Of a stretch of DNA of 64,000 bases, positions 691 through 42,674 are shown piece after piece. How positions within the stretch are numbered: the stretch's first letter is position 1; each line of letters begins with the position of its first letter. The position numbers and the translations under genes are program-made. Source of the stretch: Loxodes magnus (Eukaryota > Ciliophora > Karyorelictea > Loxodida > Loxodidae); contig CAMPDV010000102.1 of NCBI GenBank assembly GCA_946699065.1, forward strand, positions 682,001-746,000, in the 5' to 3' direction. The notes under the pieces were generated by a model, which saw only the letters and a list, made by a program, of their open reading frames with translations, was not told the DNA's origin and made no database searches.

Positions 691-692
691 AA

Positions 693-1560: not shown

Positions 1561-1561
1561 G

Positions 1562-2960: not shown

Positions 2961-2969
2961 CTAAAAGTT

Positions 2970-3308
2970 TCAGAATATAATTTTAATTCCTGCTTCGGGA
3001 CTTTGCCATACAAGGTATCCATTGTCTTCGGCGTAAAGTTTCAGCAAACTTCCTTCTTTTCTCTTGATATGCCAATTTATATCTCCTACTCCTTTTTTCC
3101 ATCTCAACATGTTCCACTTTCCTCCAACTTAGTTGTCAAGCTCATTTGATACATATGTTATTATTTTTCCTTAATCGTTTGACTAGCGAATAGCGGACAA
3201 AAGCGTTTTGATAGTGAAATTCTTTATTTCAGGAGCCATCTCATTCTGCAAGATTTCTACTTCAGGTTATGACTAAGTTGTGCGAATGATCACAAACTAA
3301 AAAGACAT
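2970..3308 (-). CDS. Divergent dynein light chain (LC8-like) protein, 112 aa
   Basis: Complete single-exon ORF: ATG at 3308, TGA at 2970, TAG/TAA read as Gln. Residues ~20-70 follow the LC8 pattern: an EM start, a helix with F.I...LSAI, a second helix with I..YVSNELD, then GGKWNML where LC8 has the G..W before the first core strand. Residues ~75-112 carry strand-like sequence with GD.NWHI and YLVWQSP, matching the LC8 beta region. LC8 dimers bind short peptides and serve as light chains of dynein motors, here plausibly in cilia. The island is clearly GC-richer than its flanks. The frame stays open upstream of the ATG, but the family's usual length (~90 aa) favours this start. The LC8 call rests on pattern by eye. 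Confidence 0.65.
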
Positions 3309-8719: not shown

Positions 8720-11700
8720 TCATTTAGCAACATCTCTCTTGTTTCTTTCTTCTTCAGCTAATTTATTGAATTCTATTAGCTCAGGGTTTATTTACCCTGG
8801 CCTTGGACATATCTTGCCTAATGCATTGCATTCTTCGCAATTTTTTTCAATTTTATCCTCCCCTTAGTAATTATCCCCACACCAACATCCTTAAGCATGA
8901 TAATGATTCCCATGGGATAAAATTGGCTAAAATATTTAAAATTACTTACATTTCTTTTTTATTCGCAACAAAAAGTTCAATCTTTTTTGCATTGGACACA
9001 TACTACATGCTCACATCCTTTATCTTTTGAAGCGAAAAATCCACAATATGGGCATTTTCTAACGTCCATTCCTGCACTTCTTACTGCTTCTCTTGCCTGC
9101 ATAAAAATAAAAAATTACCTTTTAAATAGCATTATCTTGGCAATTTCCTTAATGCGGTTATTCAAAGCACAATGAACAAAAATGTGCTTAGCAAGCAAGA
9201 CAATCTACAGTAATCGCTTATTTAGGCACTTCAAACCGTCCACTACAGGATGAATTTGGGCATCGTCTATAAATTAAAAATCATACATAAAGCCAGGAAG
9301 TTAGTTCATCCTATAGTTGCAAAGTTTATCCCAATATTATTCATCTATCGCCCATCTAATTATTCCATAATCACTATTTCCTTCAATTCCTTTTTCTAAA
9401 GGCCAGCCGCATAGTTTACTATTTTCAACAAAAGGACAAATCAAGTCATCTTCTTTATACTTTCCTTCATTTATATATGATTTTATAAGCTCAGTCAAAC
9501 AAGTACTGCACATACGATGGTCGCAATTCAAGGTTTTTAATGCAGAAAGTTCGAAATTTCCTAAACAAATTTGGCAATCATATGTCTTTATAAATAATGA
9601 TTCCTTCTTTTTTTCTTCTTCTTAATACTATAAAGCTATTTTCTAATCTTATTCCTCTTGCATACTCTTTTGCTTTTAGATGCTTTCACTCTCATTATAG
9701 TATACTAATTCAGCTAATTATATTTTATCTTCATTTATAAATGTTTCTTGACATTGCGAGTTGAAGCATTTGAATAAATTCATTTCATTTTCTGTTAAAA
9801 AATCTCATAAGCACTGTTTATGGAATTTATGATTGCAATTTATTAAGGCATAGTAATCTTGGCCAGGTTACAAGCATCCTGATGTTAAACATTTAAATTT
9901 GCTTGAATTAGGATCGGCTCACTAAACATTCATTATTTGCTATTTTTAGTCTTGCTAGCCTTATTTTTTAATTAATGGCTGCTATTTTATTTGCTGATAT
10001 ATATCTTAGATAAGTACTAATTCAAATTATTGTAGAGGCTGCAAGCAAATATAGCAAGACTTATCTTATCTTAATAATATTTCTATACTGCAATTATAGT
10101 GATAATAATGTCCACACTCTAGCTTTAATGATGAACTTTCTTCTATATTTCCATATTAATTTTAAAATTAGCAGTTCTTTGAACTACATTGCAGTTTTTT
10201 ATTTTATAGCTACATAGGTTATTTTTATTATTCATTTTATTATAGTTATTAAGGCTAATTTAAGTTAGTCCATTCTCTTTGCTGAATTTACGCCTAAGGT
10301 TTTTCTTCTGCCAGGTATTGATCAGCAAAGCCCCATTGAGGTTAAAGTGGCTAAAGCTATGGTAAACTTTATTGCTGTTGCTATTTTCTATAATCTCTTC
10401 CCATTTCAAAAAATTATAGAAGTTAATCATCTCAAATTTGATTATACATCTTTTCATTTAGATCTCTCTTACAGACAGTACATTTTAATTCATTTCATCC
10501 TTTTTCATTCGGGAGTAATAAGACAAAGCCATGAGTTCCTTCTTGTATTTATTTCTATAAACATTTTTTACAGAAGACATGACTACAATCCAATTTCAGT
10601 AACTCACTAGGTTAAGTAATTTTGCAATTACTACATTAATTTTTTAAAAGAGATTGATTCTAAAAATTAGGATTTATATGAAGGTTTTCTGAGGCGTTTG
10701 AGTTCAAAAAATGTTATAGCTCATTAAATTTATTACTAAAAGTTAATCTATTAAACTAAGATATTTTTTAGTTGCTTATTTTTATTTAATGCAAATCATA
10801 AAGAGATAGATTCAACTTTTGTCTGAACTGAAGATCTTTATTGTAAAATGATTAAGCTTTTATCTAGAATTCTTAAGGATTTTTAAGCATGCTAATCTAC
10901 TTATAAAGTTATTTAGTTCTAATGAAAAATAGTTCTAGCAGGTAAGAAAGCTTTGGAAAGTATTGGCTTAATTATAAGTCTAAATCTTCGTTAATGTTGG
11001 GGTTTTATTTTATGGAAATGCTTTGTTATTTTTACTATTCTAACTAAGAACGTAAGGATGAAACTTGAAGCTAAAGCTATTAAATTAGAACATCTTAATT
11101 TTCTCGTTGAATGCTAACATTTTACTCAAACATCTTTTCCGATAAATATAGAGGCTCTTATTTGTTGTTTTGGATAAATTATTGCGGTATAAAAACTTTA
11201 TCTGGGTTAAAATTACATTCTATTGTATTAAATCCGTCAATTTGAGACATTTCTTTCGTATAAAGAATGCTGAAACGTCCTTACTGAAGCATAATGTAAA
11301 TAGCTGGAAGCTTAATACTTTTTAATTTAGTTGTGATTTATTTGCTTGCATTTAAGTTTTAAATTGTCAAATCTTCAATGCGAATAACAATTTCCATAGC
11401 TTCAGCTAAGTTAAATATTGAATCTATTGTTGGTTCTAGTCCAATTTTTAAAAGTTCGTTATTAATTTTGTCTTTGACTTATTACTCTTAGAGCTATAAT
11501 GTTCCTTTTTAAAACTTATCAAAAAGATAGTTAGCATTTATTATTTTAAATGCGAAAGCCACAATAATTCCGATATTATTCTAATTATTTGAAGTGTCTT
11601 GCTCTAATCTTCTAAATAGATCTATTTATCTATTTTACATTTTTTGTTAAGTTAGCATATCTATGTAATCGAGAAAGTCATTCTTTATTTACTAGAAAGA

Positions 11701-12768
11701 TAACTTGGTATTTTTTATTATAGCATGTAGCTAGTTATTGAATAGTTACCATTTGTTTATTACGTTATTTTTAAATTTATGTAGTTCTTCTATAGGAGTT
11801 GTTCTTCTAATTAAGTGTTCTAAATAAGCAAATCCAACAGCTTTGTAGAATGTATTGCCATCTTCATTTATTAATCTGAATGCATCATAGTTTCTAGTAA
11901 GTTCATTTACTCTTATTTTAACTTGAGAGTCAGGCGAATTAGCAGCAATAGTTGCTATGCTTTATCTGGAAATTTAATAATATTAATCTTGTTATTAATT
12001 TATTTAAACCTTCTCATTTTATAGTTAGAATAGACTTTCTTATGATTTCTTTACCTAGTTAGGAATTTAAGGTTATAGTAACTGTTATGGGTTCTAATCA
12101 ATTTGAGTATTTGGATAATAATTTGGTACAGTGTTTTTTCTTTATTGCATTTAAGAGAGACTTAATTGCTCTATATTTTCTATAGAGTTCCCTAGTGAGT
12201 TTTGGTGTTACATATCTAATTAAGTTTAAAGGCCAAACTATTAAGGTTATTAATAGGGAATTTCATTTCCAGATAATGTATATCTCCCACGAATAGGTTT
12301 TTCCATATTCTAATAATTTATTTGGTTATTATTCTATGGATTTTACTATTATATGTTCTAGCTTTATAAGAACTATTGGAAGTTAGGAATCTATTGCTGG
12401 TTTTAGTTGAAATATAAGTCTTGTCCCTAATATTACATTTATGCTGAAGTTTAAAACGGACTTTCTTAAGGTTTAAAATTAGGATATTGAATTTAAGCTT
12501 GAAATTTTTAAGGACTTTGCTACTAGGGATTGAATTGATTGCTCATGTCTTGGAAAAAGTTTGCCTAATAAATGTTCTACTTAACCTATTATTAGTTGAC
12601 TTCAGGAATCTATTAAGGATTCATCATAAAATTAAAGCTGTTGCTATCATAAATGATCTCGTTCTATGATGCTTAAGAGCCTGATTAAACTATCGGTTGC
12701 TTTAGGCTGTTATCTCTTGACAAGCTATTATAACTTGCTGAATTTTGAAAAGGGAATTAATTTTCCAT
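8720..12768 (-). CDS. RBR E3 ubiquitin ligase fused to an inactive otubain-like domain, 1,327 aa
   Basis: ATG 12768, TGA 8720, three introns (9267-9286, 9097-9118, 8927-8949); spliced length is 1,328 codons. Residues 1-260 are Gln/Asn-rich. About 290-505 is otubain-like (peptidase C65): DGNTFYKA where otubains have DGNCFYRA, and GRFSILY where they have GHYDILY, so Cys (Thr306), His (Arg498) and Asp of the triad are all lost. About 705-990 holds several RING-like Cys/His clusters (DCSHVFCKKC, CGHYYHYNC, CYIC, CNHKFHKQC). The RBR follows: RING1 from Cys1065 (CQIC..CDHRMCSTC), IBR (CLACQAHFCSLC..H..C) and RING2 (CPYCG..KGCEHVVC) with the expected thioester Cys1238, then HGNHYH and CPRPG as in other ciliate RBR tails. 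Known for RBRs: ubiquitin passes through the RING2 Cys. Inferred: the dead domain binds ubiquitin. In-frame TGA serves as Trp in CKKDWTFC. Confidence 0.9.
8927..8949 (-). other. 23-nt intron in the RBR gene
   Basis: GTAAGT..TTTTAG on the minus strand. Its removal joins RING2 to the conserved HGNHYH tail and gives an overall frame that closes exactly at TGA 8720-8722. Confidence 0.8.
9097..9118 (-). other. 22-nt intron in the RBR gene
   Basis: GT..AG on the minus strand, ending in TGCAG. Its removal links the IBR C-terminus to the helix leading into RING2 (..AIQK | AREAVRS). Confidence 0.8.
9267..9286 (-). other. 20-nt intron in the RBR gene
   Basis: GT..AG on the minus strand. Removing it joins the RING1 exon to the IBR exon in frame (..PGF | IRCPNSSC); without removal the IBR cysteines fall in another frame. 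Confidence 0.8.
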
Positions 12769-12774
12769 CTATTG

Positions 12775-15005
12775 GTTTATAAGTTTTAAAGGAAAAATAG
12801 CAATAAATATGGTTCATAAAAACTAAAAATTATAATGAAATAAATTTTACAATGAAAATTTAGTTTATTAAAGTCATCAATGAATTATATCCTTCCTATT
12901 TATAACTCCTTAGCACTTTAGCTTTTATATTAGTCTCTTAATATCATTAAGTTCAGTAATAACAAAGAATAAATAGAGTGAAAGTTATGGTATCTTGCTG
13001 ATGATTCAGAATTTTTAGTTTTAACTAAGATAATTATGATTTAAATTATTTAGATTTAGATATCAAATTTCCCTTTATTTTATAAATTAATTAGACTCAA
13101 ATTAAATTCTTTGCTTAATTCAAAGCTACTGCTTAAGATCTTTAAATTAGACAAGTTTTATTTTCCTTAGAAATATTTAATAGAGAAATTATTTTCATTA
13201 TAAAATGCTAAGTTACTCTACCCTTCTAAAAATAGAATAAAGCTTTTGTATTTTAGTAGAAGATTAAATGATACATATAGCTGTTCTGGAAACTTTATTT
13301 CATAAGATAAAATATTAATTCATAAAAGCAAAAGTATTAAATACCTAAGATTTTAAGACTAGCCTTAATTTATTTTAAAAGAAGAAATAAATAACCAGCT
13401 TAGGCATAATAGATATTAAGCTAGCCAATATTAATAAATAGAAGCGTATTACATGATATCTATGCAAATTACTTAAAATTAAAATAGCAAAATCTAAAAT
13501 AATTTGAATTAAATATGATGCTCTAAAGATAAAGAGGCTAACAATTTATAAAATAATAAGCTTTATAATATAAGCTAGAGAATCATTTATTTTATTATAA
13601 TTTAAGAATATTGTACATTATAAATTTAAGTTCTTACTTTAGATATTTTTAATTATAGCAAGCTATTATTTCACTTTCCTAATTTACTTATTTATCAATC
13701 CTTGGATTCAGCAAAATTGTTATTTTCATCTATATAATAAGCTATTAAGGACAATGAGTTACTTGAATAGGATTATTTGAAAGTATTGAGAGATAATAGC
13801 TTTAAAATAAGATTTATTCATAATATTTAGGAATAATCAAAGAAAAGTAAAATGAAAGAGTCTATTTGACTTATTTATTTTTACTTAATAGATTAGATAA
13901 GTTTTGCTATAATCTTCATTATTGTTTTATAAAATTCCAGTGTAATAATTATAAAAGCTTAACTATAAAAGATTATACTTTCTCAGCTATCATATATAAT
14001 AATGAAATTTAAATTTTTTATAGTTATAACTGCATTAAATAAAAATAGGAGGATTTAAAGAGATTATATAAAGAAAAAATAACTTTATTAAATAGATATT
14101 TACTTTTTTAAGGTAAATAGAACTTTATTTAATATAGATCTAGTCTCTAACAAGTAATACATTTTAAATCATAAGGCTTTAAATTAACTATATTAAATAT
14201 TTAGACAATTAGAGTGAAATTTCCTCTTAATCAAAGATATTACATCAAAATCATCTCATCTTTGTGGCAGGGTAGGCTAGTTATAATTTTTAAAGTTAAT
14301 AAAATTTAATAGTAGTATATGATAAAATTTAGAAAGAAGGCAATCTATTGCTTTTTTATAAAATTTGACTATCTTTCATAAAAAAGTTGATTTAGTAAGG
14401 AAAGCAAAATAAAATAGAATGAAATAAATAAGCAGACATAACTTAAAAGTCTCATTTAGAAAAATATTAAACCATACTAAATAAATATAAAACTTATTTA
14501 CAATACTCTAAATTTTAACTTTTCAATTTATAATTCACAAAATAAATGAAATTTATATAAATTTGTAACTATAAATAATTAATTTAGAATTTATAATATT
14601 TTCGCTTATTTTTAATTTTTTTCTGATAACAGTGGTGCTTTATAACTTAAATAAATTTATTTAAGAATTTAAAATAAAATAAAAATAAATCTATTTAAGT
14701 CTCTTAAATAGTTCATTATTATATTTTAAATATAAAAGAAAACATTTATAAGATAAACAAATAAAAGGGTCATTTAAAAAGCAAGCTATATCTTTTATTT
14801 AGTTAGATATTTTAAAGAAAAATAGAAATATTATAGTAGATAATTTATTTTATTAGTTTACTTGAGTTAAAAAATTGGTAAAAATAATTAACCTTACTTT
14901 ATAGATAATTCAAATGAATAAAAATGTTTATTCTTTAACTAATTTTACTTTACCAATAAATTAAAAATTAATTATATTTAAATTTATTTAAAATTATTAT
15001 AAATC
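12775..15005. other. AT-rich stretch without recognised genes
   Basis: Upstream of the RBR gene ATG. It presumably contains that gene's promoter, but no element could be recognised. No repeats or RNA genes seen. Confidence 0.5.
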
Positions 15006-15084: not shown

Positions 15085-17075
15085 AATTTATAATATGAGA
15101 ATTTTGTTAAATATAATAACTTTACTTAGTTAGAGTAGAAATAGCTAAAATTTAGTTAAATTAAGAAATTTTATAAGTAATTGTTATTTTATTTTCTAAA
15201 ACATAGTTGAAAATTTACTATACACTTAAACTTAACTTCATACATAATCATTAGCAAAGAAATATTTTCATTTAAAGGAATTTATCTTGACTGGAAAATT
15301 TGAAATTATAAAAAATAGAAATTTTTTAATTTTTAGCAAATAAATATGAAAAAAGATTATCTAATCATTTAATTAAATCCAAATCTAATAATTTATTTAA
15401 AAAAATCTCAAATCTAAATACTGCTTTATAGTTAAGATAATTTAATTCAAACATTAATAGAAAATTTGAATTTTATTAGGCAATAAAAATTAATATGATA
15501 AACATGAAGGTTATTGCTATGTTTTAGTTTTCTCTAATTTTATTAATGAAGTTAAATTTCTTTAATAATTATATTCTATTGCTATAAGTATTTTACTAAT
15601 TATTTTTTTAGTTATTTTCGAAATTTAAATTTCATCCCATTTATTGAAATAAACTACGTAAAAATGTCGTAAAAAACTTTATGATATAATAGTAGAAGGT
15701 AAATTTTTTAATATGCTTCACTGTTTTACTTATCCAAAATAAATGATAGAAAGACGTTAATTAGTCAAGGATTTATTTTTAAAGAGATTTCAAGCAGATT
15801 GCTCTAAAGCAAATCAAAAATAACAAAAATTGTTTTTTTAATTATCTTAATTTGTATTTTCTGTTTATATTAAAAAATTATTATCTTAATTAAAAGTTAT
15901 TAGATTACTTTATTAATAATAAACAATTACATCATTATATCATCTTTCTTAAAGCTAAGATTAATCTTATAAAGGCTAAGCTTATTAAATCTTTTACTTT
16001 ATAAAAAAGATTCTAGTTGGTTAACCACTGAAATTTATATAACTAATTATATGATGTAAAATAATAATAATCTAATGATAATTTTAAAATAAACTATTCA
16101 ACTTTCAGATTTAAAAATAGAATAGCTTAGAATGTATATCACATAGATAAATTTAATTTGTTAGATAAATAATCTAAGAAAATATAGAAAATAATAAGTG
16201 TTTTATCTTTGTAACAAGCACTATATTACTATTCATTTATTTAAAATACCTAGGGAAATTCTTATATTTAATCCTTTTATTAAAGAAGAAAAAATAAAAT
16301 AACTAAATTTTTTATTTAGGAATAATTAATAAATTGTATAAGACCTAAGCAGTTGTAGATATTGTAAGTTCTTTCAAGTTAATATTACATCAAAATTTAA
16401 GGTAAATGTTTATAATGTAATTATTTGCTCTAAAATTAGAATTTTAATCTATCTTATTAGATAAACTAGCTTGTTATTATTTTAGGAATTTAGTTGTAAC
16501 TGTTTATAATACAAACTAAATCAGCATAATTTTACATTTTTTTATTGCTATTATACTTTAGTGAAGAAGCTTAAATCAAAAATTTTATTTTAAATCTTTT
16601 AATATTCTAATATTAAGGAAGAGCATAAATCTCTTAATATCTAAATTAATTAATTGGCAATAAAAAAATGAAAATAAGATCTACCTCAAGCATAGAGATT
16701 CCCTATCTTATTAATAGAAAATAAAATAAAAATTACTTATCTACATTATTTAAATAGAATCTGTTTATCAATTTAGATAATTATACAAGCAAGCATAGTT
16801 ATTAAGACAAACTGATATAAAATAAACTTTTTAGTTTATATATAAAGTTTATTAATTCTAATGCTTATCTAAATATCTATATATCTAAAGGATTTAAATA
16901 AAATCAAATTTCACAGATACTCCTGAGCTTCAGATTAGTTAATTAAAAATATAAAACAGTAGATTTAAAAAGAAAAGGTATCGCGTTTAGGTTATCAAGA
17001 TAGATGAAATTCTTATTAATGAAGATTTATTTAGTATGAGAAAACTTAATATGCAATAGATAAATAATAAGTATA
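15085..17075. other. AT-rich stretch without recognised genes
   Basis: Lies between tRNA-Thr and the 3' end of the Cys-rich surface-protein gene. No motifs, repeats or RNA genes identified. Confidence 0.5.
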
Positions 17076-17083
17076 AAAGTATT

Positions 17084-20000
17084 TCAAATGTCTATACGAA
17101 GAGATCTTTTCTTCCAAGTTAAGTTATTTTATTTTTTTAGTTAATTCGGTTTGATTTGAAAATTATTTCTTTTTCTTTCTTCTAATTATACATCTTCCAT
17201 AGTCAAATCAAAAAATTGCAGAGTTTATCTTCAATTTGAAAAATTGCTAACGTTAATTTAATTATTTGCTCTTATCCTTCTTACCTATTCTTATAAAGTT
17301 TGATCTTGAATATCTATATTTTAACTCTAAGTTGTCACTTTTTGCTTCTACTTTCTAGCAAGCATGCATTATTTGTACATTTTGTATACTGTTACTATTA
17401 AAGATATGATTAAGCTCATAATGGAGTAGAGGATACATATAAAAACTAAAATATTACTCAATATGTCATTTTACTAAGCTTAGCTTTCTGTCAAAGTTTG
17501 GTCTCTGATTGCATTGAAGTAGAAATTAAAGAAGTAAATTATAACCAAAACTATTTCTATAATATGAGTTAATATCATTTCAAAGGGCTTAAAATAAATG
17601 ATATAGAAAAATCATATAAGACAGTGAACTAAATATAAACTTATTTATGCAACTTGATGCTCCACCAAAGCTACAGCTACAAAGGATACATAAAGTCTCC
17701 TTATTAGAAAGAAAGTCTGAAACAAAGCTTAAGGTAAAGAGTTTTGCCTTTTTAACTCAAAATAAACGATATACTTATCTTTTATTTGACTTAGCTTTAT
17801 TTAAAATTCTTCCTCATTAGAATTTTTATAAGATTAAGTAAGCTCTAAGTATTATTTAACGATAGAAAAGCTTCTATAAATTTAGTAAACCTATATTAAC
17901 TAATTTTATAAACTTACTAATAATATTATAGCTAGAAATGTATTAATAGCTACATACATATCAGAAACACTAAAATGGAATAACTATAGCATTATAGCAT
18001 TGTTTATTTAAAGTGCTTTTATGTTATAAGCCATCGATATTAAATTTCTATTTGTCATTTTTGTTCTTAACTTTTCCATTGCTGCTTTCCATTTTACTAA
18101 TCCTATTAACTTAAATAATAAATCTATAAACAAAAGCGTAAATAAAAAAAGGAGAGCATTGATTAGATTTGACAGCAATGTGAAGCTTTTATAATTCATA
18201 AGTACATAAATATCCTTATCAAGTTTAAGCTACTCGCTATCTAAGTTAAGCATAAAGAAATCATCCTAGCTTACTACAGTTACTATTTACTTATTATTGA
18301 AGTTCATAAAAAAATAAGCATTTAATACTTGATTTCTCTTAACATCTATAAAAGCATTCATAAAAATAAGTTAAGTAGTAAGAATTGCTTATAAGAATTA
18401 AATATTTCCTGATATTAATTAGGAAGTACTCAGAAATGAAATAAAAGCTTAAGTTGTCACACATATTATAATAATATAAGTTAAAGCAGAAGATATTTGA
18501 CTTGAAGATTCTATTGCTTTTTTTTATTGATCAGATAACTAAAAATCATCCAAATTTTAGTAGAAGTTATTATCTTATTATTTTGAATTTTGTTCATTAA
18601 TAGAAGGCTTTTAGACTTAATTTTCTATGCATTGGTTATTTTCTATTTTAAAATTTTGGTAGCATTTATTGCATTAAAGAAATAATCCTTCATCAACATC
18701 ACATAGCAAGCAATTAAAAGTAAAACTACAATAGTTACAATTTTTATTTATGTTCAAAATATCATGCGAGCAAGCTTCAAGACATTTAGTAAAATTAGTA
18801 CTTAATCATGTCTCTTCGCATTTAAAAATGACTGAGCCATTATTGTCGCAAGTCAAGCATTAAGAAATTTTATCTCAACAAAAATCGCAAAATAGATTAA
18901 TTAGAACATTACTAGCGTTTTTACTTTTCGTTATGCATTTTTCCTCATCTAAGAGAAAAGGATAATAACATCCTAAGCAAATATCTCCATTCGAATCGCA
19001 ATATTAGCAGTTTTCTATTTTATCTTTACACTTTAAGCAAGTATTGTTTTCAACATAATAAGTTTAATCAGGACAACTTTAAGCACATTCTCCTTCGCTT
19101 AGTAACCAAGATTCCATGCACTATATGCAAGACTACCCATTCAGATCGCAATATAAGCAGTTTTCTATTTTATCTTTACACTTTAAGCAAGTATTGTTTT
19201 CAACATAATAAGATGAATCAGGACAACTTTAAGCACATTCTCCTTCGTTTAGTAACCAAGATTCCATGCACTATATGCAAGACTACCCATTCAGATCGCA
19301 ATATTAGCAGTTTTCTATTTTATCTTTACATTTTAAGCAAGTATTGTTTTCAACATAATAAGATGAATCAGGACAACTTTAAGCACATTCTCCTTCGCTT
19401 AGTAATCAAGATTCCATGCACTATATGCAAGACTACCCATTCAGATCGCAATATAAGCAGTTTTCTATTTTATCTTTACACTTTAAGCAAGTATTGTTTT
19501 CAACATAATAAGATGAATCAGGACAACTTTAAGCACATTCTCCTTCGTTTAGTAACCAAGATTCCATGCACTATATGCAAGACTACCCATTCAGATCGCA
19601 ATATTAGCAGTTTTCTATTTTATCTTTACACTTTAAGCAAGTATTGTTTTCAACATAATAAGATGAATCAGGACAACTTTAAGCACATTCTCCTTCGTTT
19701 AGTAACCAAGATTCCATGCACTATATGCAAGACTACCCATTCAGATCGCAATATTAGCAGTTTTCTATTTTATCTTTACATTTTAAGCAAGTATTGTTTT
19801 CAACATAATAAGATGAATCAGGACAACTTTAAGCACATTCTCCTTCGCTTAGTAATCAAGATTCCATGCACTATATGCAAGACTACCCATTCAGATCGCA
19901 ATATAAGCAGTTTTCTATTTTATCTTTACACTTTAAGCAAGTATTGTTTTCAACATAATAAGATGAATCAGGACAACTTTAAGCACATTCTCCTTCGTTT

Positions 20001-21688
20001 AGTAACCAAGATTCCATGCACTATATGCAAGACTACCCATTCAGATCGCAATATTAGCAGTTTTCTATTTTATCTTTACACTTTAAGCAAGTATTGTTTT
20101 CAACATAATAAGATGAATCAGGACAACTTTAAGCACATTCTCCTTCGTTTAGTAACCAAGATTCCATGCACTATATGCAAGACTACCCATTCAGATCGCA
20201 ATATTAGCAGTTTTCTATTTTATCTTTACATTTTAAGCAAGTATTGTTTTCAACATAATAAGATGAATCAGGACAACTTTAAGCACATTCTCCTTCGTTT
20301 AGTAACCAAGATTCCATGCACTATATGCAAGACTACCCATTCAGATCGCAATATTAGCAGTTTTCTATTTTATCTTTACATTTTAAGCAAGTATTGTTTT
20401 CAACATAATAAGATGAATCAGGACAACTTTAAGCACATTCTCCTTCGCTTAGTAATCAAGATTCCATGCACTATATGCAAGACTACCCATTCAGATCGCA
20501 ATATAAGCAGTTTTCTATTTTATCTTTACACTTTAAGCAAGTATTGTTTTCAACATAATAAGATGAATTAGGACATGTCTTTAAGCACTGACCTTCAAAT
20601 AAAAGGAATGAGCTTGCGCATTTAAAGCATTAATCTCCATTTATATTACATTACTCACAATTTTAAATTTTATTAATGCATTTCATGCAAGTTTAATTTT
20701 CCTGATAATATTCATAACTAGGACATGTCTAAACACATTATATATTATACAAATAGAAATTAGCATTACATTATGTGCAAGAATTCTTCTTTTCGTCACA
20801 TAATTAACAATTAGATATCTTATTACTGCACAGTTAGCAGTATTAATCGTTATCGATATCTTGCTAATCAGGAGGACAATTTTGCATGCATGTTTAATTC
20901 ATCGAAATTTTTTTATTACAACTACATGAATCTGAATTAAAGATTCATCCTTCATAGCATTGCAAACAGCTTTACTAACTTGAACTGTAGCATTTATAGC
21001 AATCTTAATAGCAAGAATCTGAGTTTGGTATTGAAGTAAAACCCTGATATTATTACTCTAAAATAATAATTAGATTATTGATATCAATATATTAGTCTAA
21101 ATAATATCTAAGCTTATAAATAAATCCTCTATAATTACAAACCTAAATATCGCTCCCTTATCATATATCATTTTACTAAGTAAATTAAATTCATTATTAA
21201 AATTATCCTTTAACGGTTTCAAATTAGTTCTGCAAATTAGAGTGAGTAACACCATAAAAATAATTTTTTGAATTATCAATCGCAAATCCAATGAATACTC
21301 ATATATCAAACACCTAATCTATTTGTAAACTTTAGAAATATTCTATTTTTTTTTCCATGATCTATGCTCAAAAATTATTCTTTTATTATGCAACATCAGT
21401 ATAAAGAGCCAACTCGAAGTGATTGTTCTAATCTATAACAATTTTTATGAAAACTCCATAAAAGCAGTGATCATTTTGCGAATTTTTGTCAAATTTTAAC
21501 CATGCTGTAATACTTCATTTAGTCTGGTAGGAAGGGTTAATATTATAATCTAGAAAATTATTCACTTCAGATTTTTTTTTCGTTGATAAATAAACTGGAT
21601 TATTAGTAATCATAATCTCTTAAAAAGAAAGGCTATAAACAAGAAATTATTTTATTAAAATTATAAATATCTAGATATTCGCTTTCAT
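17084..21688 (-). CDS. Large surface protein: LamG-like domain, Cys-rich tandem repeats, polytopic membrane tail, 1,534 aa
   Basis: Single open frame from ATG 21688 to TGA 17084, no intron needed. Residues 1-24 form a signal peptide (MKAN then hydrophobic). About 50-190 resembles a concanavalin/LamG fold (KWSITAWLKF, WVFIGFAID). About 230-1000 is Cys-rich in the style of ciliate furin-like/GFR repeats, including ten nearly identical 50-residue units (CPDSSYYVENNTC..CKDKIENCLYC..C..C). About 1070-1430 has six or more hydrophobic membrane segments, then a polar cytoplasmic tail. It is likely a plasma-membrane or ciliary receptor-like or adhesion protein. TGA is Trp at 20945, 18875, 18806 and 17612, among others, where repeat alignment or membrane context wants Trp. 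TGA at 17231 is the alternative end, which would shorten the tail by 49 residues. Confidence 0.85.
19051..20570 (-). repeat. 150-bp tandem repeat array inside the surface-protein gene (ten near-identical units)
   Basis: Period exactly 150 bp (50 codons), starting near 19051, 19201, 19351 and so on to 20401, with diverged copies on both sides. Three unit types differ at fixed sites and recur as a 450-bp higher-order block, with one extra unit of type B (20101 and 20251). Each unit carries eight Cys. Type C units (19351, 19801, 20401) have TGA where types A and B have TGG. The opposite strand is incidentally open for 452 codons; that is a shadow. Confidence 0.95.
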
Positions 21689-21699
21689 TTTATTAGCTA

Positions 21700-24600
21700 T
21701 TTTTTATAAGCATTCATATATAAATTTAAATTTAAGACTTCCTCTTAAACTTTAAACTATTTTAGTTAATATTAACTTAGCAAAGATTATATTAGTTATT
21801 TTATTAATTATAGAAATTTATTATAATGTTTTTTATTTTTTTATTTGCTCATAAAATTATGCTTTAATTGATTTTTATTCTTAATTATTAGTGTCTTATC
21901 TTTATAACCATTTATTTTTCGCTAACTTGAAATTTTTTGCTTTGTTTCCTTTATTTATTTCGTAAATTAAAATTTAGTTTAGTTTCAAAATTTTTATTAC
22001 TTTTAATAAGTTTTTGACTAAAAGTTATTAAAAAAGCAAAGCTTGGAAAATTTTCATAGAAGTTAAATAATAAGATCTAAGTAACCTTTAAAAATTACAA
22101 TGTCCCATTAAATAAAATTATTCTAATATAAACAGAAAAAATAAATTTTAATTTTGTTCAAACAAATACTTAGATAATTTATTTTGCTTTTATTTACAAT
22201 TTCATAACTTCTGAAAGAATAAGGATAAATAAATACATCTTAAATAATAAAAATAATCAAGCTTTTTTCCTTAGAATCATTTAAAGAGTTTTTACCGAAG
22301 ATAATTCTATTTTTGATTTTTTTATTAGTCAGAAAACTCATAACCAAATTTTTTTTGGTTTTAAATAGATTTATAAATATTTGGAAAACATACTGATTAT
22401 TAATTAAAATATTATTAAATCAACTTTATATTTTAAAATTTCTATTTAATTATTTTAGGTTTTATATTTCTCTTTTGCTACTTTATCTATCTTCAAATAT
22501 TTAGTTATTCATTTATCATACATTTTGTAAATTAAATTTAAGGTTCAAATATTCTTTTATATTAGAGAATTTAAATTTATTTAATCTTATTTCAAAAGAT
22601 AAAATTTAATTGAAAAATACCTTTTCTAATATGATCTTTCTAAATAATTATTTATAATTTAAGCAAGAATAATTTTTATTATTAGATTATATTTATTTAA
22701 ATTAAGAAATGTATTGTTAAGTTTTACTTCAATTTTAATAAAGCTAAATATGCAGACATTAGTAATTTACCTTCTATGATTTAATTTAAATTATTTAAAA
22801 TTTATGAACTTTACACTTCTTTCTTTTAATATCTTTAGAACTCCTTTTGCATTAATTTATTCCTATATTTTCAATTATTTAATACTAAAACCAAGCTTGC
22901 TTAAAAATTTATTTTAATTCAATCTGTTCTTGAAATATCTTTCTATCGTTTTGAAAATAAAGTTTTAGGCTTTCGAAGTAATTAAAGAGTTATTCCAAAT
23001 TTAAAACTTTAGTTATAAGTCACTTCAGATTTAGAATCACAAAAGGAATAAATAAAATTTAGAAAAAATTACTTTTATTTTTTAAGATCATAAATTAATC
23101 TTTGGAATATTTTTAAGAAACTGCGATTTGGAATTTATTCTCTTTTTTAAGATTTTTTGTAAATCAAATATTTTAATTTTATTTATTTACTCATTCCTAA
23201 CTAATAAATTATTTCGAATGTGATAAGCTCTTAATTCAGTTATAGTTAGATATCCTCCTATAAATGTTTTTTAGGATACTCATATTGTTAATTTGCAAAA
23301 TCATAATTATTATCTACTTTATAGTTAATAAAATCTTAATCTATTTTATTTAGCTAAAACAATTAGAAAATCTAAAATTTAAGGAATTATGCCAATTTAA
23401 TTTAAATTAATTCTAATTTTTATTTCTTAATTACTATTTTTCTCACTACTTTCTCTTCATGTATGTAAATACATATAGAAGATTCTTAATTTCAAAATGC
23501 CTTTTCTATTAATTTTCTCATTTAAAATACTTATTTTAATTTTAATTTAATAAATTAAGAAAATTTCCTTAATAAGCATATTAGATTCATCTAATATGAG
23601 GAACTAAACTAAGAGTATTTTATCCTATAATTTAAAAATAATAGAAATAGAATCTCTATTTACCTTTCATCCAAAAGAGTTTATATTTTAAATTTAATTA
23701 TTAAGAAATCATACATTTTATGTTTCTTTAAATGAGAAAGCTCAAAAGAGTTATTATAGCTATATCTAAATATCTTTCTTCTTTCTAAAATTAAATTTTA
23801 TAATATAAAATAAATTTATTAATTTTTACATTTCTAGAGTATTCGAATTCAAATAGCTTATTTTTAAATTTATTTTAAGATTATAGTTATTTTCAATTTA
23901 AATTAAATTTTATCTTATGATAATTTAGCCTTTTTATTTAATCCAAAGAAATCAATTGTTTACAGAACAAAAAGCATTAATAAATATTTTAAACAGTGCT
24001 TAAAATATCGATTTTTCCTGCTGTTTACTATTTTTCAAATTTTTCAAATAAAAATTTGCATAAAAACATAGATTTTCCTTCTTTTTATTACCGAAAGTTA
24101 TAGAAGGGAAAATTTATTTATTTATTTTATTTTAAATTATACCTCCAATCACAGAATTTTTATTCTGCATTTAATAATTTCATTGTATTAAAAGTTAAAA
24201 ATAATAATTTAAGTTAGCCTGTGTTGGCAAATTTTACGAAGTTTAATATTATATAATATAAAGTATTAAAAATATAATAAAATAATTGATGTCTAAATTT
24301 CATACTTAGAATCTGTCTTTAATTATATGAAGATAGTTAATTTAAATTATTTTTTAATTTTAGTAAGATTTATTTTTCTTTTCTGGAATCTACTATAAAT
24401 TTTTCTTTATTTTTAATTAAGAAATTTTTCAAATAGCTCTAAATTTTCTTTAAATTTAAGAAATTTAATTCTTTTTTAGATAAAATTAAAATTTGTATGA
24501 AATGTGAATTATCAAATCCACTAAGAAACTTTTTCAACATTTATATTAGAAGAATTATAAAAATAATTAATTATGCCTTTTTCTAAGCAGAATGCCTTAC

Positions 24601-27259: not shown

Positions 27260-27963
27260 AATTATTAATTTATTTAAGAATATTAAAATGTATCTTTTTG
27301 CTTAGTTATATTAACTAAAGCATAAAAATAATCAAGAATTTTTTCTTATTATTTTTCCTTCCTTTATTGCTTTTTTTTGCCAATCCTATTAAAAAAGCAA
27401 GCCAAGTTTTAAAAAACTTTAAACTTTAATATAATTCATATTTATATAAAATAAAAAATTAAGTATTATTAAAAAGGATCTAATAGAATAAATATCTCCT
27501 TTAAATAAAAAGATAATATTTTAAGTTGTACCTTATTGATATTAGACTTATATCTAAAATTCATTTATCATTATAAAATAATAGTATCTCTCACTAAAAT
27601 CTATTTTATAATATTTTGGCTAAATTAAATAAGCTAGCTAAGTATTAAAGTCTATTAACTTAATTATTTTATTACTTTTTAGCTTTATAATTCATTATAT
27701 AACTAGTAAGTTTAAATTAAATTCTACTAACTTTAGATGAGATAATCTCATTATAGTAAAACTAACTAGAGAGAAAATTATATACTTAGTAATCTATTTT
27801 GTGAATAATTAAGTATACTTATAGCAAGAAAGATTATTCCAAATAATATTTATTAAATTTTACTATTTAGATTTATAAGAATCAACATAGGACTATAAGA
27901 ATAACATTGATAGAATTAAATTCTAAGAAATTGTGATAAAAATACTATGGAAAGTAAACACTA

Positions 27964-29100
27964 ATGAATTAAAAAATAAGACAAGTTTTCATAAGAAGGT
28001 TTTAGTTGCACATTAATATTGTATTTTTTCTAATTTTATATATATTAATAATTATTATGTGGAAGGATAATTTATCTAGGATCATTAACTTATAGAAGGT
28101 GTAAAGATCTGTTTCTAAACTGAATAAAGTGGTTTCTAAAAAACAGTTTAAGATAAATAGTCAAGAGTCAACTTCTGTTTCTGGGAAAAAAATTTTGTTG
28201 CTATAGCATAATTTAACCTGAGATTAATTATAATAAGATATCTTATAGCAGACCAATGCTTTATCATTAATAAAAAGTAAAAGCAATGAAAATTTTAAGA
28301 ATTTAAAAGTAAAAAAAGTTATAAATCGCTGAAATCAGATGAATAAGGTAGTTTAAGCAATTCGAGTAAAAGATGCAGAGCAACCTAAAAATGGAGATTT
28401 AAAAGTTGAGCATAAAAGGAAATATGAATTTAAAAGCTTAAGTTCGTAAATTTCTTTTAGTTCTTAAATTTTATCTCCTCAGTCATGTAAATCCTTCAAT
28501 AATTTTAGTTTTTTTAGTGAACCAAACAGTCAATCTATTACATAAATGAATTAAGAAAAAAGTAAAGAAAATAATGAAAAGGAAATTTTATATATAAAAC
28601 AGAAAAAAAATACAAACTGTAGACCAGTTAAAAGTCTAACAAATTTGAAATTTGATAAATATTAATCTTCTATTTATTAAAAGCGGAAAAACGATAGATA
28701 AATTTAAGACGGAATTAAAGGCTAAGAGCCCACCAAAATAGATTTCAATGAGAGAAAATAAATAAAGAACTAAGGTAAATCTATTAAATTAAATTCAGAA
28801 TCTCTGATTTCAGATGTAGAAAAAATTAAAGTTTAGTCAAATTCATAGCCTCTAATTATTTAATTCCATACAAAATCAAATTAGCTAGATATAATAAGCG
28901 AGGAAAGCACTCCAATCCTAAACATGTAATAAAATCCAGTATTATTTTAAGAAATTAAAGAATAACCTACTGAATAAGTCTAAATTGAAAGCAATAATTA
29001 AAAAATTAAGAGACTAGAATTTAGAATGAAGAAGGTAATAATAATAATAAGTATAATAATTCTATTTTTTTCTTATCTTTATTGGCTAGCAAAAGAGTGA
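27964..29100 (+). CDS. Lys/Ser/Gln-rich protein with N- and C-terminal membrane segments, 378 aa
   Basis: ATG 27964 to TGA 29098-29100, one frame. Residues ~18-32 form a membrane segment (VFFLILYILIII). The middle is polar, rich in Ser, Lys, Asn and Gln, with runs such as SSQISFSSQ. Residues ~357-373 form a tail anchor (VIIIISIIILFFSYLYW) followed by LAKE and the stop. In-frame TGA at 28219 and 28330 reads as Trp (LTWD, NRWNQ). I do not recognise the family. The layout resembles the MEHL proteins at 32.2 and 47.3 kb (polar body, one C-terminal anchor and a stop within a few residues), but no clear sequence identity is seen. Confidence 0.55.
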
Positions 29101-29109
29101 GATGAAAAA

Positions 29110-32100
29110 TACTTGAATTTTATTATTTATAGTATAAGTTAGAATTCAATTATGATTTGTTAAAATCTAAATATTAATTTAAAATTTTAATATTTTATTA
29201 AACGTTTACTTTATTTTAAAGCTCGCTTTTAAAAATGATTTTACATTCTGCTTTATAAATTTTTATAAAATTTTATAATTATTAAGTAGATTAAAAGCTT
29301 TTTATCCTTTACACTTTAAAATTATCTTCACAATATCTAATATGATTTGGGTCTTGGACATAAAAATAGTAAAATGCTTATTTATTTGAGGGAATTTTTT
29401 ATAATTTATTTATAATTATTTTATGATTCAACTTTGCTTATTCTTTAATTTTTATCCCATTTAAATCTGACTTCCATTTAAGTAGCTATGTAAATTTTTT
29501 ATAAAGTAAGGTTTTAAAACTAACAACTATATGAATATCTACCTATCTTAATTTATGGAATCTAATAAATTAAATCATTTAACTGGGAATATTATAGGAA
29601 TCTTAATTAATTAAAAATAATAATAAATGAATCTTTAGTAAGAGAAAGCATTTTACATAAAGCATAATTAAAGTTAGTTAGGCTTCCTTTCTTAATTTAA
29701 GATAATATAAATTAATTTTAGTTATATTAATAAAGGGATTTACATAATAAACATTTATAAAGAAAAGTGATCTTTCATATATATAAAGTGATGCTTCAGT
29801 GATTTTGGAATAGACTAAATTTTTTAATTTAAAAATTAATTTTATTTCTAACTAACTTTCATCTAAAGCCTAAGTCTAAATTAAAATTGAAAAAATCAAT
29901 GATTACTATTATTTCTTTAATTAAAAATTAAAAATTAAAATTTATATTTATAGAAATTAAAAAAAAATTTAGATCTAAGTGTATTTGATCAGAGTAAATG
30001 AAACATAAAAATATAATGACAAAATTAAAGAAAATCTATTTTAATTTAATTTAAAAATAATTATTTCATATTTATAAACTAAATTTAAATTTAATTTTGG
30101 CCAGTCATATCGATGTTTGTTATTTTTATTTATTTAATTAAATTATGAATTCTAATTTTTTAATTATTTTTTTAAGGAAAAAATAAGCTTAGAAATTCTC
30201 AGAAATTTAAAACTCTATCAATGAGGCTATAAAGAGTAAAGTAAAATTAAAAAAATGAATAAATTAAGCTAATGCGAGATAAATATTAGATTTAGTTTAT
30301 TAATTTATTTAAACATTCTTAGCTTTATAAATTTTTGATTAAAGAATTAAAGTAGCTATAACAATTCTAAAATTAGAAAAGTCATAAATAAAATTAATTT
30401 TTTAAATTTAATATTTTCTATTGCAGCAAAAATCTAAATAGACAAATATTAAGTTTAAAATAATTTGAAATATAATTATTTAGACTTATATACTCATTTA
30501 ATATAATTATTTATTTATTTTTAAGAGATATTTAATTAATTTATAGTCATAAAAATTAGTTACTAAATAAAAAAATTGTAAAATATCATAGTCACTTTTA
30601 CCAGAACTAATGGATATCTCATCTTAAAATCTTAAAGAATAATTTAATATTCATAAAATAAATTTAATTTGCTTTATCCTTGTTTAGTGGCTAATATTTT
30701 TAAATTTTTTAAAGAATACAATTAAATACTTATTCTTAAGTCATAACTAAACCAGAGTTAATTATAAAAGATATTCTATAAAATAAGCCAAACCAAGAGA
30801 AAAGCAGATGCTTTCAGATTATTTTATGTATTAAAATTTTATAATTCAGAATTTCTAATTTATATAAAATTTTAATTTTTTTATTCTTTCGAAATTTTGG
30901 AAATAATTTTAGAATTATAGAATATTTTATTTATAATTAATATTATTAAATTTTAAGTTTTTTACTTAATTTAAAAAGAGAGACAACTAGATAAATTCTT
31001 AAAGTTTTAATTATTATTTTCCTCTAAATATTTCTAGAAATTATCTAAATCTAAACTTTAAGTTAATAAAGTTATAAATACATTAAACTCTTTATTTTCC
31101 TTAATCTTAAGCTATCTTCTTAAATAATAAATATTGCTTATAAATAAATTTTGCATAAGTATGTAAATATCTTGAAAGGAGTTAGCAGTTGTAGAGAGAT
31201 GCATATAAGCATAATAAGAAATAACTTATTAGAACAGTTAATATTAAACTATAAAAATAATAAAGCATAAATAAAGAAATAAATTTTAATATAAAAATAA
31301 AATAGTAATAGATTAATATTAGCTATCTCCTTTAATTCAAATTACTATAATTTAAATTAACAATTTTTTAATTTTTGCTTGCTTATTTGATTTAAATAAT
31401 TTGTATAAATATTAAATTATAAATATTTATATAAAATAAATTTCTTTACTGATATTAAGTTTTATTTAAATAATAAAAATAAATCTAAAATAACTGAACA
31501 AAGGTTTATTTTAATCTAATACAGAATATTATAACTTTTAGACTAAAGAAATAAATTAAATAGTAAAATAGTATAATTTTTTGGATATCTGTTTAGATAG
31601 TTTCCTAAATATCTGAGTAATAAGCACATTTATCTTTTACGTTTATGATTACTATAAATATAAGTAATCAATATTCAATTTTATAATTAGATAAAAATTC
31701 TATATCTCTAAAATTTTATTAAGCATTCAATTTAATTTGACCATTTCATAAATAAATAATATAAGAGAGTTAAATGAATAGTGATTAAGAGTTTGAACCT
31801 TATAATTAGTACTTAAAAATGAAAGCAAGCTAGGCTAAATTAAAAAATAAAAATCACTTAAAAAGTTATTGATTTAGCATTCTAATAAAACTTATTAAAC
31901 TTGGAGTGAATTTTTTAAAATACTTAAATTTTTTCATAAATCTACATTAAACAAATAAAAGAAGTTTAATTGTTAGGGTTAAAAGAAAATACTATGTGAA
32001 AGATTTTAGACTATAAGCAAGATGCATAAAATCCTTACTAAGGAAAAATAATATTATAAATAAGTCTAAGAATTGAAAAACATGAGATTTACTTTGGAAA

Positions 32101-32208: not shown

Positions 32209-32754
32209 ATGGAACATCTTAATAAATCTTAAAACAAACACAAGAGGTAATTTAGTCAATAAAAGCTAAAATATCTATATAGTAAAGGAAAAGGATAAAA
32301 TTTAAACGCTAAGTTAGAAAAATCATATGCTTAGATTTCAGCAGAAAACCTTATTCGACATGAAAACTAAATTTTAATAGAAAAAGAGAGAAAAAAAACT
32401 GTGCCTTAGTTAGATATAAAGTTGAGCCCGTTAATTATCAGAAGAAAATTGCAAAAAAGTATGTTCTTTGATAAATCTCAGAAAAGTTAGCTTGAAAATT
32501 TTATCTCACAAGTCAAATAAGCAAAAAATTCAGGCCAGAAAAGTAAATATGTACTAGAGATTGACAATAAGGACTTTTAAAAATAAAAGCATAAAAAATA
32601 AAACTAAGTATAACACAAAGGAGAAATGGAAATGCAACTTAAAGCTTACAATAGATATAAAATGCTTACAAGCGAGTTTTTTTTTGGTTTTGTTTTAATT
32701 ATCATGATAATAGTTTATAAAATCTATGCTATAATAAGTGAGAAGAAGAATTGA
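32209..32754 (+). CDS. MEHL-family tail-anchored protein, copy 1, 181 aa
   Basis: ATG 32209 to TGA 32752-32754. It is paralogous to 47343-47885 along its full length. Shared segments include the MEHL start, QKLKYLYSKG, a VPQLD..LS block with LIIRRKLQKS, and AYNRY before the anchor, ending in a membrane helix (FVLIIMIIVYKIYAIIS) and EKKN-stop. The paralogue fixes both ends and shows that TGA really terminates here. The body is rich in Lys and Gln with no Cys motif. It is probably a C-terminally anchored membrane protein facing the cytosol. Family unknown to me. Two copies, one on each strand 15 kb apart, could also mean it belongs to a mobile element. Confidence 0.75.
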
Positions 32755-39760: not shown

Positions 39761-40097
39761 GATATTAAAAATTTATTAATTTAATGTAAATTAATTAAGT
39801 AAATTATAATTGAAAATTAAATTGAATTTCAAAATACGGTATCATATATCTTATTTTTGAATTAATAATTGTTCTTAGATAAAATTATTATAAAAAGTCT
39901 GTTGTATTTTTAGCAAGCAATCATAATATGATTTATAGATAAACTTATATAACTTATTTATTTAGCTAAATTTTATATTTTATGCAATTATTCACTTATT
40001 ATTATTATTATATAATGAAATGATAAAATTTATTTAATTTAATAAATAAAGCTAAAATTATTTTTACAACAAAATGTTTTAAAAACTTAAAAAGAGA

Positions 40098-41879
40098 TCA
40101 GAGTCTAAACCACTTCTTACTTCTTATATCAAATTCGTAGATTCTTTTGTATCGGTTATAAAAAAATACTAAATTCCCAGAAATTTTAGGAGTGTTAAAG
40201 GAGACATTTTTGTCATATTCCTATGCAAAATTGACTATACTTTTGTTGTCAAACATATGCACTTACTATCCTTAGTTATATATGCTAATATTATTGAAAA
40301 TTATAATACTTTTCTAAGGAATTTGACAAGAGAGAGTTCATTGTTTCATAGGAAGATCTCTCTCGTTTTTGTATCATTTATTATTTTGGCTTTAGTAAAA
40401 ATAAATATCTTATATAAATTCTTCTTATTCGTTATTAAATCCTCCAAAACTTCATAACTACTAATTTTAGTATGCACAACTATGACCACGAATATCAACT
40501 GGAAATTCATCAATTTCTGTGAAATTTTTATTTTCAAATTAAAATATTTCGCATTACTTTTAAGCATATTCTCCAGCTATTAGTAATATGCCTTTTCTTT
40601 AATCATGTGCAAGTGCGTGAGACTACCTTTCATAAATGGTCTCATAACTTTTTGCTTCTCTATCTTCAGCAAAAATGAATCTCTTTCACCAATTTTATCC
40701 TCCTGAAATAATGAAGCTTTAGTTTCCAACCTGCAAAGATCTATGAGCTCTAGTGAAATCTCCTGTTGGAATTTCATAAGAAGAAATTACTTATTTTATA
40801 TCGCTTTAAAACTTTACAATGTTTCTGTTTGCTTATTCACTAAAGAGAAAAATTTAAGGTATGTTTTATGCAATATCTGAATCTATTTCATCTTAATTTA
40901 GTTTTTTAATCTCAAGAGGAAATTTTTATTATACTAGTTCGATTCTTAATTTCTCCATATTATTTTAAATACTATTAGTAAGATCGTTTAAAGATTCTTT
41001 CGGTTCTAAATTTTCAAAATTAGCAAACTTATTCAAAGTTTCTTTTTTATTTTACTATTCACAAAGGTACTATAAATAACTTTATAGCCTAACTGTTTCA
41101 TACATATCAGAGGGAAATTTACTTTTCTACACTTAATCTCATGAAAACTATATTTTCTTAATACCATTATTGAAATCTTGGATTCAACTCTAAACATACT
41201 CAGAAGCCTTTTATGTTTTTTCCTATATTTTTATTATTTCTTCCTGTTGCATTTTATTTAAGGATGCTATAACATTTTGTTCTATAGAATCTATTTTCTG
41301 CTATATGTTTTTAAGCTGATTTATTTCTTATTAAACTAGATTTTTCTAGCTTAAAAGGATACTAACTTTCTATTAGAAGTCTTATTCACAAGTATCAAAC
41401 TAACTTCCTATATCTTCTGTTTTATGTGTTTTATGTTCATCTTCTAAACATTTTTAACAAATTAATTCTTTGTCTTTAAAGCAGTATTTTATGTACTACT
41501 ATTTATGTCATAAGCAAGCTTTTATATCAAACTTAAATTAAGTTTCATTTCAAGGATCATCTTACTTGACTTTAGTATTTTATTTGCCTTAATTATTATT
41601 AGAATCTTAAGGGTAGTGGGATGTTACAAGCTTCTAATTATTTTAAGGCATTTAAGAGTTGTTACTTTATTAGTTATCTTAATTTTACTAAGTCTAGCAA
41701 ATTTAAGTATCTCTACTATTTCCTTGTTTACTTTGTATCTTTTAGCAATTTCCAGTGCCTTTTACTTTAGGAGATGTTAAGTAAATAGTAAGTTGTTGGA
41801 TGGATTAGATAGATCTTGTCTTGGAACTATATAAAATAGAGAATAGTTATATAGCCTAAAGTCTTACACTATGATGCAT
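40098..41879 (-). CDS. B-box / coiled-coil / kelch-repeat protein, 593 aa
   Basis: ATG 41879 to TGA 40098, one frame, no intron needed. Residues ~122-153 form a B-box zinc finger: C-x2-H-x7-C-x7-C-x2-C-x4-H-x2-H (CLWH..YCFKDKELICQKC..H..H), with Trp from TGA. Residues ~160-350 are a Gln/Lys-rich coiled coil. Residues ~370-593 are kelch-like: NQSFIISGGQN, ILLIAGEYA, a QLWSFGGFNNE repeat motif (Trp from TGA) and the closing IYEFDIRSKKW, expected to form a beta-propeller. This resembles TRIM-type proteins without a RING. A role as a scaffold or substrate adaptor, possibly in ubiquitin signalling, is inferred. The N-terminal 100 residues are Gln/Ser/Asn-rich. Confidence 0.85.
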
Positions 41880-41884
41880 ATTTA

Positions 41885-42595: not shown

Positions 42596-42602
42596 TTTTA
42601 AG

Positions 42603-42674
42603 GCGCTATTAGTCTAGTGGTTAGGATAACTGCCTTCCAAGCAGTTGACCCGGGTTCGAGTCCCGGATAGCGCA
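42603..42674 (+). tRNA. tRNA-Gly (anticodon UCC)
   Basis: 72-nt cloverleaf. The acceptor GCGCTAT/ATAGCGC is fully paired. The anticodon stem ACTGC/GCAGT carries loop CTTCCAA, giving UCC, which reads GGA. T-loop GGTTCGAGTCC present. Identical in sequence to the copy at 63735-63806. Confidence 0.97.

Follow-up and report, generated by a model that had tools for sequence, protein, structure and literature searches.

A ciliate locus in which TGA very probably reads as tryptophan within genes and as stop at their ends

Can a single triplet encode an amino acid inside genes and also end them? The question is raised by a 64,000-nucleotide stretch of DNA (the window), most likely nuclear DNA of a ciliate, and in particular by the gene G1 on its minus strand (17084..21688). 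Units of a Cys-rich repeat array in this gene carry either TGG or TGA at the same tryptophan (Trp) position. An initial annotation placed the feature at 19351..20600, although the gene reaches further, from about 21688 to 17084. Weighing all the evidence, we think it highly probable that TGA specifies Trp in the body of a gene and a stop at its end. The best fit is an ambiguous karyorelict-type code (NCBI table 27), of a kind that is already known (tables 27 and 28). Coordinates below are those of the window, and features lie on the minus strand unless noted.

The TGG/TGA column of the G1 array

From position 20482 down to 18983, the minus strand consists of ten tandem units of exactly 150 bp each (18983..20482), which match the Furin-like_2 family with E = 9.5e-27, nine stretches passing individually. 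The codon following ATG GAA TCT is TGG in seven of the ten units and TGA in the other three, namely unit 1 (20456-20458), unit 5 (19856-19858) and unit 8 (19406-19408), as first annotated. Units 5 and 8 are identical copies of unit 1 at all 150 bases; the three thus derive from a single mutated unit and amount to one TGG/TGA exchange. Pairwise differences number 0–4 among units 1–9, and 8–9 between these and unit 10. The statement that the rest of each unit is unchanged nearly holds: measured against the first six TGG units, the TGA units show 2–4 changed bases in 150, but one of these changes replaces Asn with Ser. The TGA units accordingly encode CMES[W]LLSEGEC, whereas six of the seven TGG units have NEGEC in place of SEGEC and the seventh, the last, has Ser as well. 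A G at unit position 34 (0-based) accompanies TGA in all three units and occurs also in the last TGG unit. The open reading frame across the array, which had been offered as support, carries no weight if TAA, TAG and TGA are all taken as sense. A second exchange is visible at unit position 127, between TTA (Leu) and TAA; here TAA faces Leu.

The array is flanked by six diverged units, and their equivalent of the Trp column (C-x3-[W/TGA/F]) holds phenylalanine (Phe) in four and TGA in two, upstream at 20945-20947 and downstream at 18806-18808. These are the two diverged units that the initial annotation had named. The column is therefore aromatic. It was fixed from the array before testing, and two of the three TGAs in the diverged units fall within its six sites among 267 codons (hypergeometric P = 0.0013). 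The third (18875-18877) lies in a variable Lys/Ser/Ile column. A single minus-strand frame holds the Cys pattern across the array and the diverged units; among the latter, one group has a Furin-like_2 match (E = 4e-05). For the downstream units (18530-18982), no Pfam family was matched with any of seven residues tried at TGA.

Overall, G1 comprises a hydrophobic N-terminus, a LamG-like region, Cys-rich furin-like repeats (Furin-like_2, E = 5e-22) and hydrophobic stretches, with 13 TGA, 10 TGG and 116 TAA/TAG codons in its interior. Its start (a Met ahead of the hydrophobic stretch) and its 3' end (proposed terminal TGA 17084-17086) were picked by eye. The N-terminal part, in its LamG-like reading, contains five TGA, one of which (21299..21301, residue 130) lies in FDI-W-VFIGFAID, a context that we take to resemble the LamG Trp motif. 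With ten residues tried at TGA, the Laminin_G_3 model matched at E ≤ 1 only for Phe (13.3 bits), Trp (12.9) and tyrosine (Tyr; 12.7), and the alignment reached TGA 21299-21301 only for Trp, at a sub-threshold E = 0.12. Differences in Furin-like_2 score among the residues were disregarded because the aligned stretch misses the TGA residue. The LamG region had no match at E ≤ 1 among PDB sequences.

Other meanings of TGA were also tried and rejected or disfavoured. Cys, Arg, Gln, Ser, Gly, Leu and Lys gave no Laminin_G_3 match at E ≤ 1, a weak exclusion given that Trp itself is sub-threshold. Selenocysteine was set aside on two grounds: no selenocysteine insertion sequence (SECIS) element from Rfam was found in 16000-22500 at E ≤ 5, and 13 internal TGA occur in one gene.

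TGA in two further genes and at gene ends

TGA occupies Trp or aromatic columns in three genes: the array gene G1, a B-box/kelch gene (G3) and a gene with a RING-IBR-RING (RBR)-like end (G2). G3 lies at 40098..41798, with an undefined 5' end and a proposed terminal TGA (40098-40100) assigned by eye; its interior holds 8 TGA and 2 TGG. The TGA at 40374..40376 aligns with a conserved kelch Trp of KLHDC10 (9d8p_A); a second TGA, at 40452-40454, is matched in the same protein by a Tyr and a Phe. When ten residues were tried at TGA, Trp was the best in five of nine kelch and B-box models (Kelch_4, Kelch_6, Kelch_1, Kelch_3 and NANM). For Kelch_4 the scores were 25.1 bits for Trp, 20.2 for Ile, the second best, 19.8 for Phe and 19.4 for Tyr; for Kelch_3 they were 17.6 for Trp, 13.9 for Phe and 13.6 for Tyr. 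The picture that these alignments suggest is of Trp at kelch Trp positions, together with some TGA where Trp would be unusual.

G2 (8720..12768, terminal TGA 8720-8722) encodes an otubain-like domain, RING domains and the RBR-like end, and contains 5 internal TGA and 7 TGG. Its IBR match lies in another frame (E = 0.00022), which three inferred introns reconcile with the rest of the gene: 9267..9286 (20 nucleotides (nt), 15% G+C (GC)), 9097..9118 (22 nt, 18% GC) and 8927..8949 (23 nt, 13% GC), with GTATG, GTAAT or GTAAG at their starts. The spliced protein aligns with ARIH2 (7od1_A) over the IBR and second RING, including across the point of the 22-nt intron. Within the second RING, the TGA at 8977..8979 (CKKD-W-TFCC) faces a Phe of ARIH2. 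Outside G1, three kelch and RBR TGAs thus face Trp, Tyr or Phe, but the B-box TGA of G3 faces Asp.

The otubain-like domain of G2 (12000-11196) matches OTUB2 with E = 1.8e-10. It reads GNTFYKA where OTUB2 reads GNCFYRA, with Thr in place of what is presumably the catalytic Cys. G2 may thus join a deubiquitinase that has lost its activity to RING/RBR domains.

Outside the array, G1, G2 and G3 together comprise 2927 codons, with 23 TGA against 12 TGG. TGA thus makes up 66% of presumed Trp codons (23/35; 95% interval 49–79%), or 18 of 30 after removal of five that are possibly intronic. Trp, with TGA included, accounts for 1.2% of codons (35/2927), and coding TGA occurs at 7.9 per 1000 codons, compared to a noncoding rate of 13.2 per 1000.

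TAA and TAG are sense codons in these genes, with 325 in the interiors of G1–G3; outside the array, they outnumber CAA/CAG by 288 to 98. Glutamine (Gln) is the usual meaning of TAA and TAG in ciliates, and likely here. The initial annotation had already placed these triplets at Gln positions; their use as sense stands, but Gln is not singled out, since five residues score within 1.8 bits of one another in the otubain-like domain (Ser 57.7, Glu 57.2, Asn 57.1, Gln 56.1 and Lys 55.9 bits). The other four of the nine residues tried scored lower (Arg 51.6, Leu 45.4, Tyr 42.9 and Trp 40.8). In a pair of paralogous genes, P1 and P2, 26 aligned cells with TAA/TAG comprise 12 that face TAA/TAG, 3 Lys, 2 Gln (CAA/CAG), 2 Glu and 7 others.

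This pair also bears on the other role of TGA. P1 lies on the plus strand (32209..32754, 181 codons, terminal TGA 32752-32754) and P2 on the minus strand (47885-47343, 180 codons), where its terminal TGA (47343-47345) is aligned with that of P1. The two genes are divergent paralogs, and the protein that they specify (180 residues) has a hydrophobic stretch at its C-terminus. From a common ATG to the aligned TGA, 99 of 180 aligned residues are identical with a single one-codon gap; 59 of the 129 base differences fall at third codon positions of the shared frame, and neither gene contains an internal TGA or TGG. Beyond the aligned TGA, the DNA remains similar for about 100 bases (score 44; mean of 300 shuffles −32, standard deviation (SD) 10.4, maximum −2). 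The gaps there are not multiples of three and the protein score of −6 is within that of shuffles (mean −11.8, SD 8.6). This is the pattern expected if the coding region stops at TGA and the untranslated ends of the two genes are related. In G2, the coding score reaches its maximum one codon beyond the TGA, after ...NKRDVAK, under a model trained without G2, with the last intron alone removed and stop triplets scored as zero. The aligned ends of the paralogs and the loss of coding signal at the TGA of G2 both indicate that TGA also serves as a stop. The initial claim that all three standard stops are sense is therefore true of gene interiors, but it missed the gene-ending role of TGA.

The runs of codons free of TAA, TAG and TGA before the terminal TGA measure 14 in G1, 23 in G2, 40 in G3, 46 in P1 and 40 in P2. 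With each gene's own rate and with P2 omitted as a paralog of P1, the four remaining genes give a combined P = 0.001, a value confounded by the hydrophobic ends and by variation in Gln content along the genes. These runs are a hint of depletion of the three triplets ahead of the stop.

Weighing the readings

Besides the confounding of the pre-stop runs, several results weigh against TGA as Trp within genes and stop at their ends. The array TGAs record one mutational event, not three, and their column tolerates Phe. The initial phrase "direct evidence" was thus too strong for the array, although TGA as Trp inside G1 is well supported by sequence comparison (the TGG/TGA exchange, the aromatic column, the two further genes and substitution scoring). 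The proposed end of G1 is not confirmed by the coding score, and that of G3 is not sharply marked, its score peaking about 30 codons ahead of the terminal TGA. The matches to KLHDC10 (E = 0.0039 over the full chain, with neither of the two stretches significant by itself) and to ARIH2 (E = 0.029) are weak, and those to Laminin_G_3 lie below the Pfam cut-off of 27.6 bits, with Phe outscoring Trp. Trp has no advantage in the RING_2 model of G2 (Gln 46.0, Ser 45.8, Arg 45.7, Trp 43.6 and Cys 41.6 bits). Among the G3 models, Tyr is the best residue, above Trp, in ATRN-LZTR1 and Kelch_2; KLHDC2-kelch gives 39.5 bits for Asn, 34.0 for Tyr and 32.3 for Trp; and the B-box model, where TGA faces the Asp of Midline-2, favours Asn and ranks Trp lowest of ten (30.5 bits; others 31.0–33.0). 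Finally, 5 of 26 internal TGA, compared to 1 of 19 TGG, lie in GT...AG spans of 15–35 nt with at most 26% GC, so a few could be intronic; none lies inside a GTA...TAG span of that length and composition.

The alternative that survives best, although we consider it unlikely, is a Condylostoma-type code (NCBI table 28), in which all three triplets are both sense and stop and TAA or TAG ends some genes. It shares the core of the favoured reading, with TGA as Trp inside genes and stop at their ends. A small RING-H2 gene (62463-62310) points this way and is a further result against a TGA-only stop: its coding signal is lost at TAA 62308-62310, the next 60 bases have a GC content of 11.7%, and its last 51 codons contain no TAA, TAG or TGA. 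This TAA may be a stop, as judged from composition and coding signal. The coding score of this gene is weak (21.7 bits), however, it is a single case for TAA with none for TAG, and the remaining five proposed gene ends (G1, G2, G3, P1 and P2) are TGA, though those of G1 and G3 were set by eye.

A Tetrahymena- or Paramecium-type code, with TGA as stop only and with G1 and G3 as decayed pseudogenes, is improbable. It accommodates the TGA that terminates the paralog pair and G2, and the TGA rate in the three genes is not far under the noncoding one; Paramecium also has short introns, so those of G2 would fit. It leaves unexplained why TGA falls at aromatic or Trp columns in three genes, one of them (G2) with an apparently intact RBR fold and gene end, and why a single frame carries the Cys pattern across the array and diverged units.

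Only marginally less credible than a stop-only TGA is the proposal that it stands for Phe or Tyr instead, an aromatic residue that the array column would tolerate. Diverged units do have Phe at that column, the second-RING TGA of G2 faces Phe, the three aromatic residues score almost alike in Laminin_G_3, and Tyr exceeds Trp in ATRN-LZTR1, Kelch_2, KLHDC2-kelch and the B-box. Against this, the exchange partner in the array is TGG, and Kelch_4, Kelch_3, Kelch_6, Kelch_1 and NANM favour Trp. We know of no code in which TGA means Phe or Tyr.

Still less credible is the removal of TGA from the three array units by splicing. Four GT...AG spans of 15–60 nt cover the TGA in a TGA unit, and two of them (24 and 45 nt) are multiples of three. 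But the 24-nt span has 9 G/C in 24 and begins GTGCAT, unlike the inferred G2 introns, which have 13–18% GC and begin GTATG, GTAAT or GTAAG; the base that creates its AG is present also in the TGG unit at 19132; and its removal would delete a repeat Cys. Splicing would also leave the TGAs in the diverged units, kelch and RBR regions unexplained. Finally, the notion that the true gene is an antisense open reading frame in the standard code (19213-20571, plus strand, 452 amino acids), with the minus-strand reading an artefact, is strongly disfavoured: it has no stop across the array units and matches 12 Pfam families (best MRG, E = 5.9e-17), but it stops with the array (its flanks hold 12 stops in 150 codons and 6 in 137), the 12 families are unrelated and no single stretch passes, as repetition adds up weak chance matches, and it is the minus frame that holds the Cys pattern in the diverged units, with their Furin-like_2 match.

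Under the favoured code, with its two roles for TGA, the mechanism proposed from published work on Condylostoma and Loxodes could operate here. At an internal UGA, tRNA-Trp would outcompete eRF1; at the last UGA, nearness to the 3' end or poly(A) would favour eRF1. One TGG to TGA mutation in the array would have been near neutral because the codon stayed Trp, and the mutated unit could then have spread to three copies by unequal exchange or conversion.

With ARAGORN, four tRNA genes were identified in the window, one for Thr and three for Gly; none is for Trp. The tRNA-Trp(UCA) that had been expected of the genome is not required by this reading: in Condylostoma a nuclear one was not detected (PMC4967479). 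A tRNA-Trp with a CCA anticodon and a 4-bp anticodon stem could equally be the decoder, by the short-stem mechanism described in PMC13092985. At the gathering threshold, tRNA is the only Rfam family present. The three tRNA-Gly(TCC) genes (42603-42675, 46082-46154 and 63735-63806) are near-identical, two have related flanks, and they were perhaps spread by a mobile element. Dispersed inverted repeats also occur, at 704-1576/51848-50984 (78% identity), 59251-59620/61170-60803 (98%) and 45550-45862/50113-49802 (86%). The first of these pairs shows no codon periodicity and is therefore uninformative about the code.

Few conserved genes appear in the regions scanned against Pfam. These were 1-3300, 42501-47400, 49501-54400, 54401-59300 and 59101-64000 in six frames; 27601-29200 in plus frames; 9001-13500 and 40001-42500 in minus frames; and 15502-22300 in one minus frame. 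Protein searches with the C-terminal part of G1, the RING part of G2 and G3 gave no match at E ≤ 0.001, and scans of viral contigs yielded no relatives of the G1 repeat region, G2 or G3. An unsupervised codon segmentation gave noisy output in which the array dominated, and structure models built without an alignment were unusable (mean predicted local distance difference test (pLDDT) scores of 36.2 and 32.7).

Comparison with known codes

Such a preponderance of TGA among Trp codons, if it extended to the whole genome, would be notable. That UGA is the majority Trp codon of a ciliate lineage while still a working stop is a tentative proposal, to which we give somewhat less than even weight; termination would therefore be almost wholly context-dependent. 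The literature searched, which was seen in excerpt, yielded no description of a ciliate whose Trp codons are mostly UGA and whose genes also end in UGA. If coding UGA is frequent genome-wide, this organism would offer a much richer substrate than Condylostoma or Parduczia, where it is rare, and the adjacent TGG and TGA units lend themselves to a naturally matched comparison by mass spectrometry or ribosome profiling. In practice, gene finders that use the standard or Tetrahymena code would split these genes at every TGA.

Outside the ciliates, Amoebophrya sp. ex Karlodinium veneficum and Blastocrithidia use all three stops as sense, as here; the likeness is one of description, not sequence, and Blastocrithidia differs in reading UAR (UAA and UAG) as Glu. 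Among ciliates, Plagiopyla frontata (Plagiopylea) is predicted to read UAR as Gln and UGA as Trp, and UGA is believed to have kept its stop function there as well (PMC10553269). It resembles the present code in this double use of UGA, but internal UGA is rare there: of 240 query proteins, McGowan et al. report 3 that have it where Trp is conserved (PMC10553269).

In Condylostoma magnum (table 28), as here, all three triplets are sense within genes, and UGA as Trp was demonstrated by mass spectrometry (PMC4967479). Unlike in the present genes, where a TAA stop is seen in one doubtful case, all three triplets also serve as stops. Swart et al. give coding UGA frequencies of 0.042% in Condylostoma and 0.120% in Parduczia (PMC4967479), about 6 to 19 times lower than in our three genes; coding TGA is thus commoner here, at 7.9 per 1000 codons, than in Parduczia.

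The closest likeness is to the karyorelict code of Loxodes and Parduczia (table 27), in which TAA and TAG are sense and TGA is both Trp and stop (PMC11441545; PMC4967479). Short introns are a further likeness, and fewer reassigned codons ahead of the stop may be another (PMC11441545; PMC4967479). Loxodes is depleted before the stop in UGA and UAA but not UAG (PMC11441545); the hint of depletion seen here resembles that in Condylostoma and, for UGA and UAA, that in Loxodes, with the three triplets pooled in our count. The inferred G2 introns of 20, 22 and 23 nt likewise resemble those of Loxodes, whose lengths have a mode of 17 nt, with 93% at or below 25 nt (PMC11441545).

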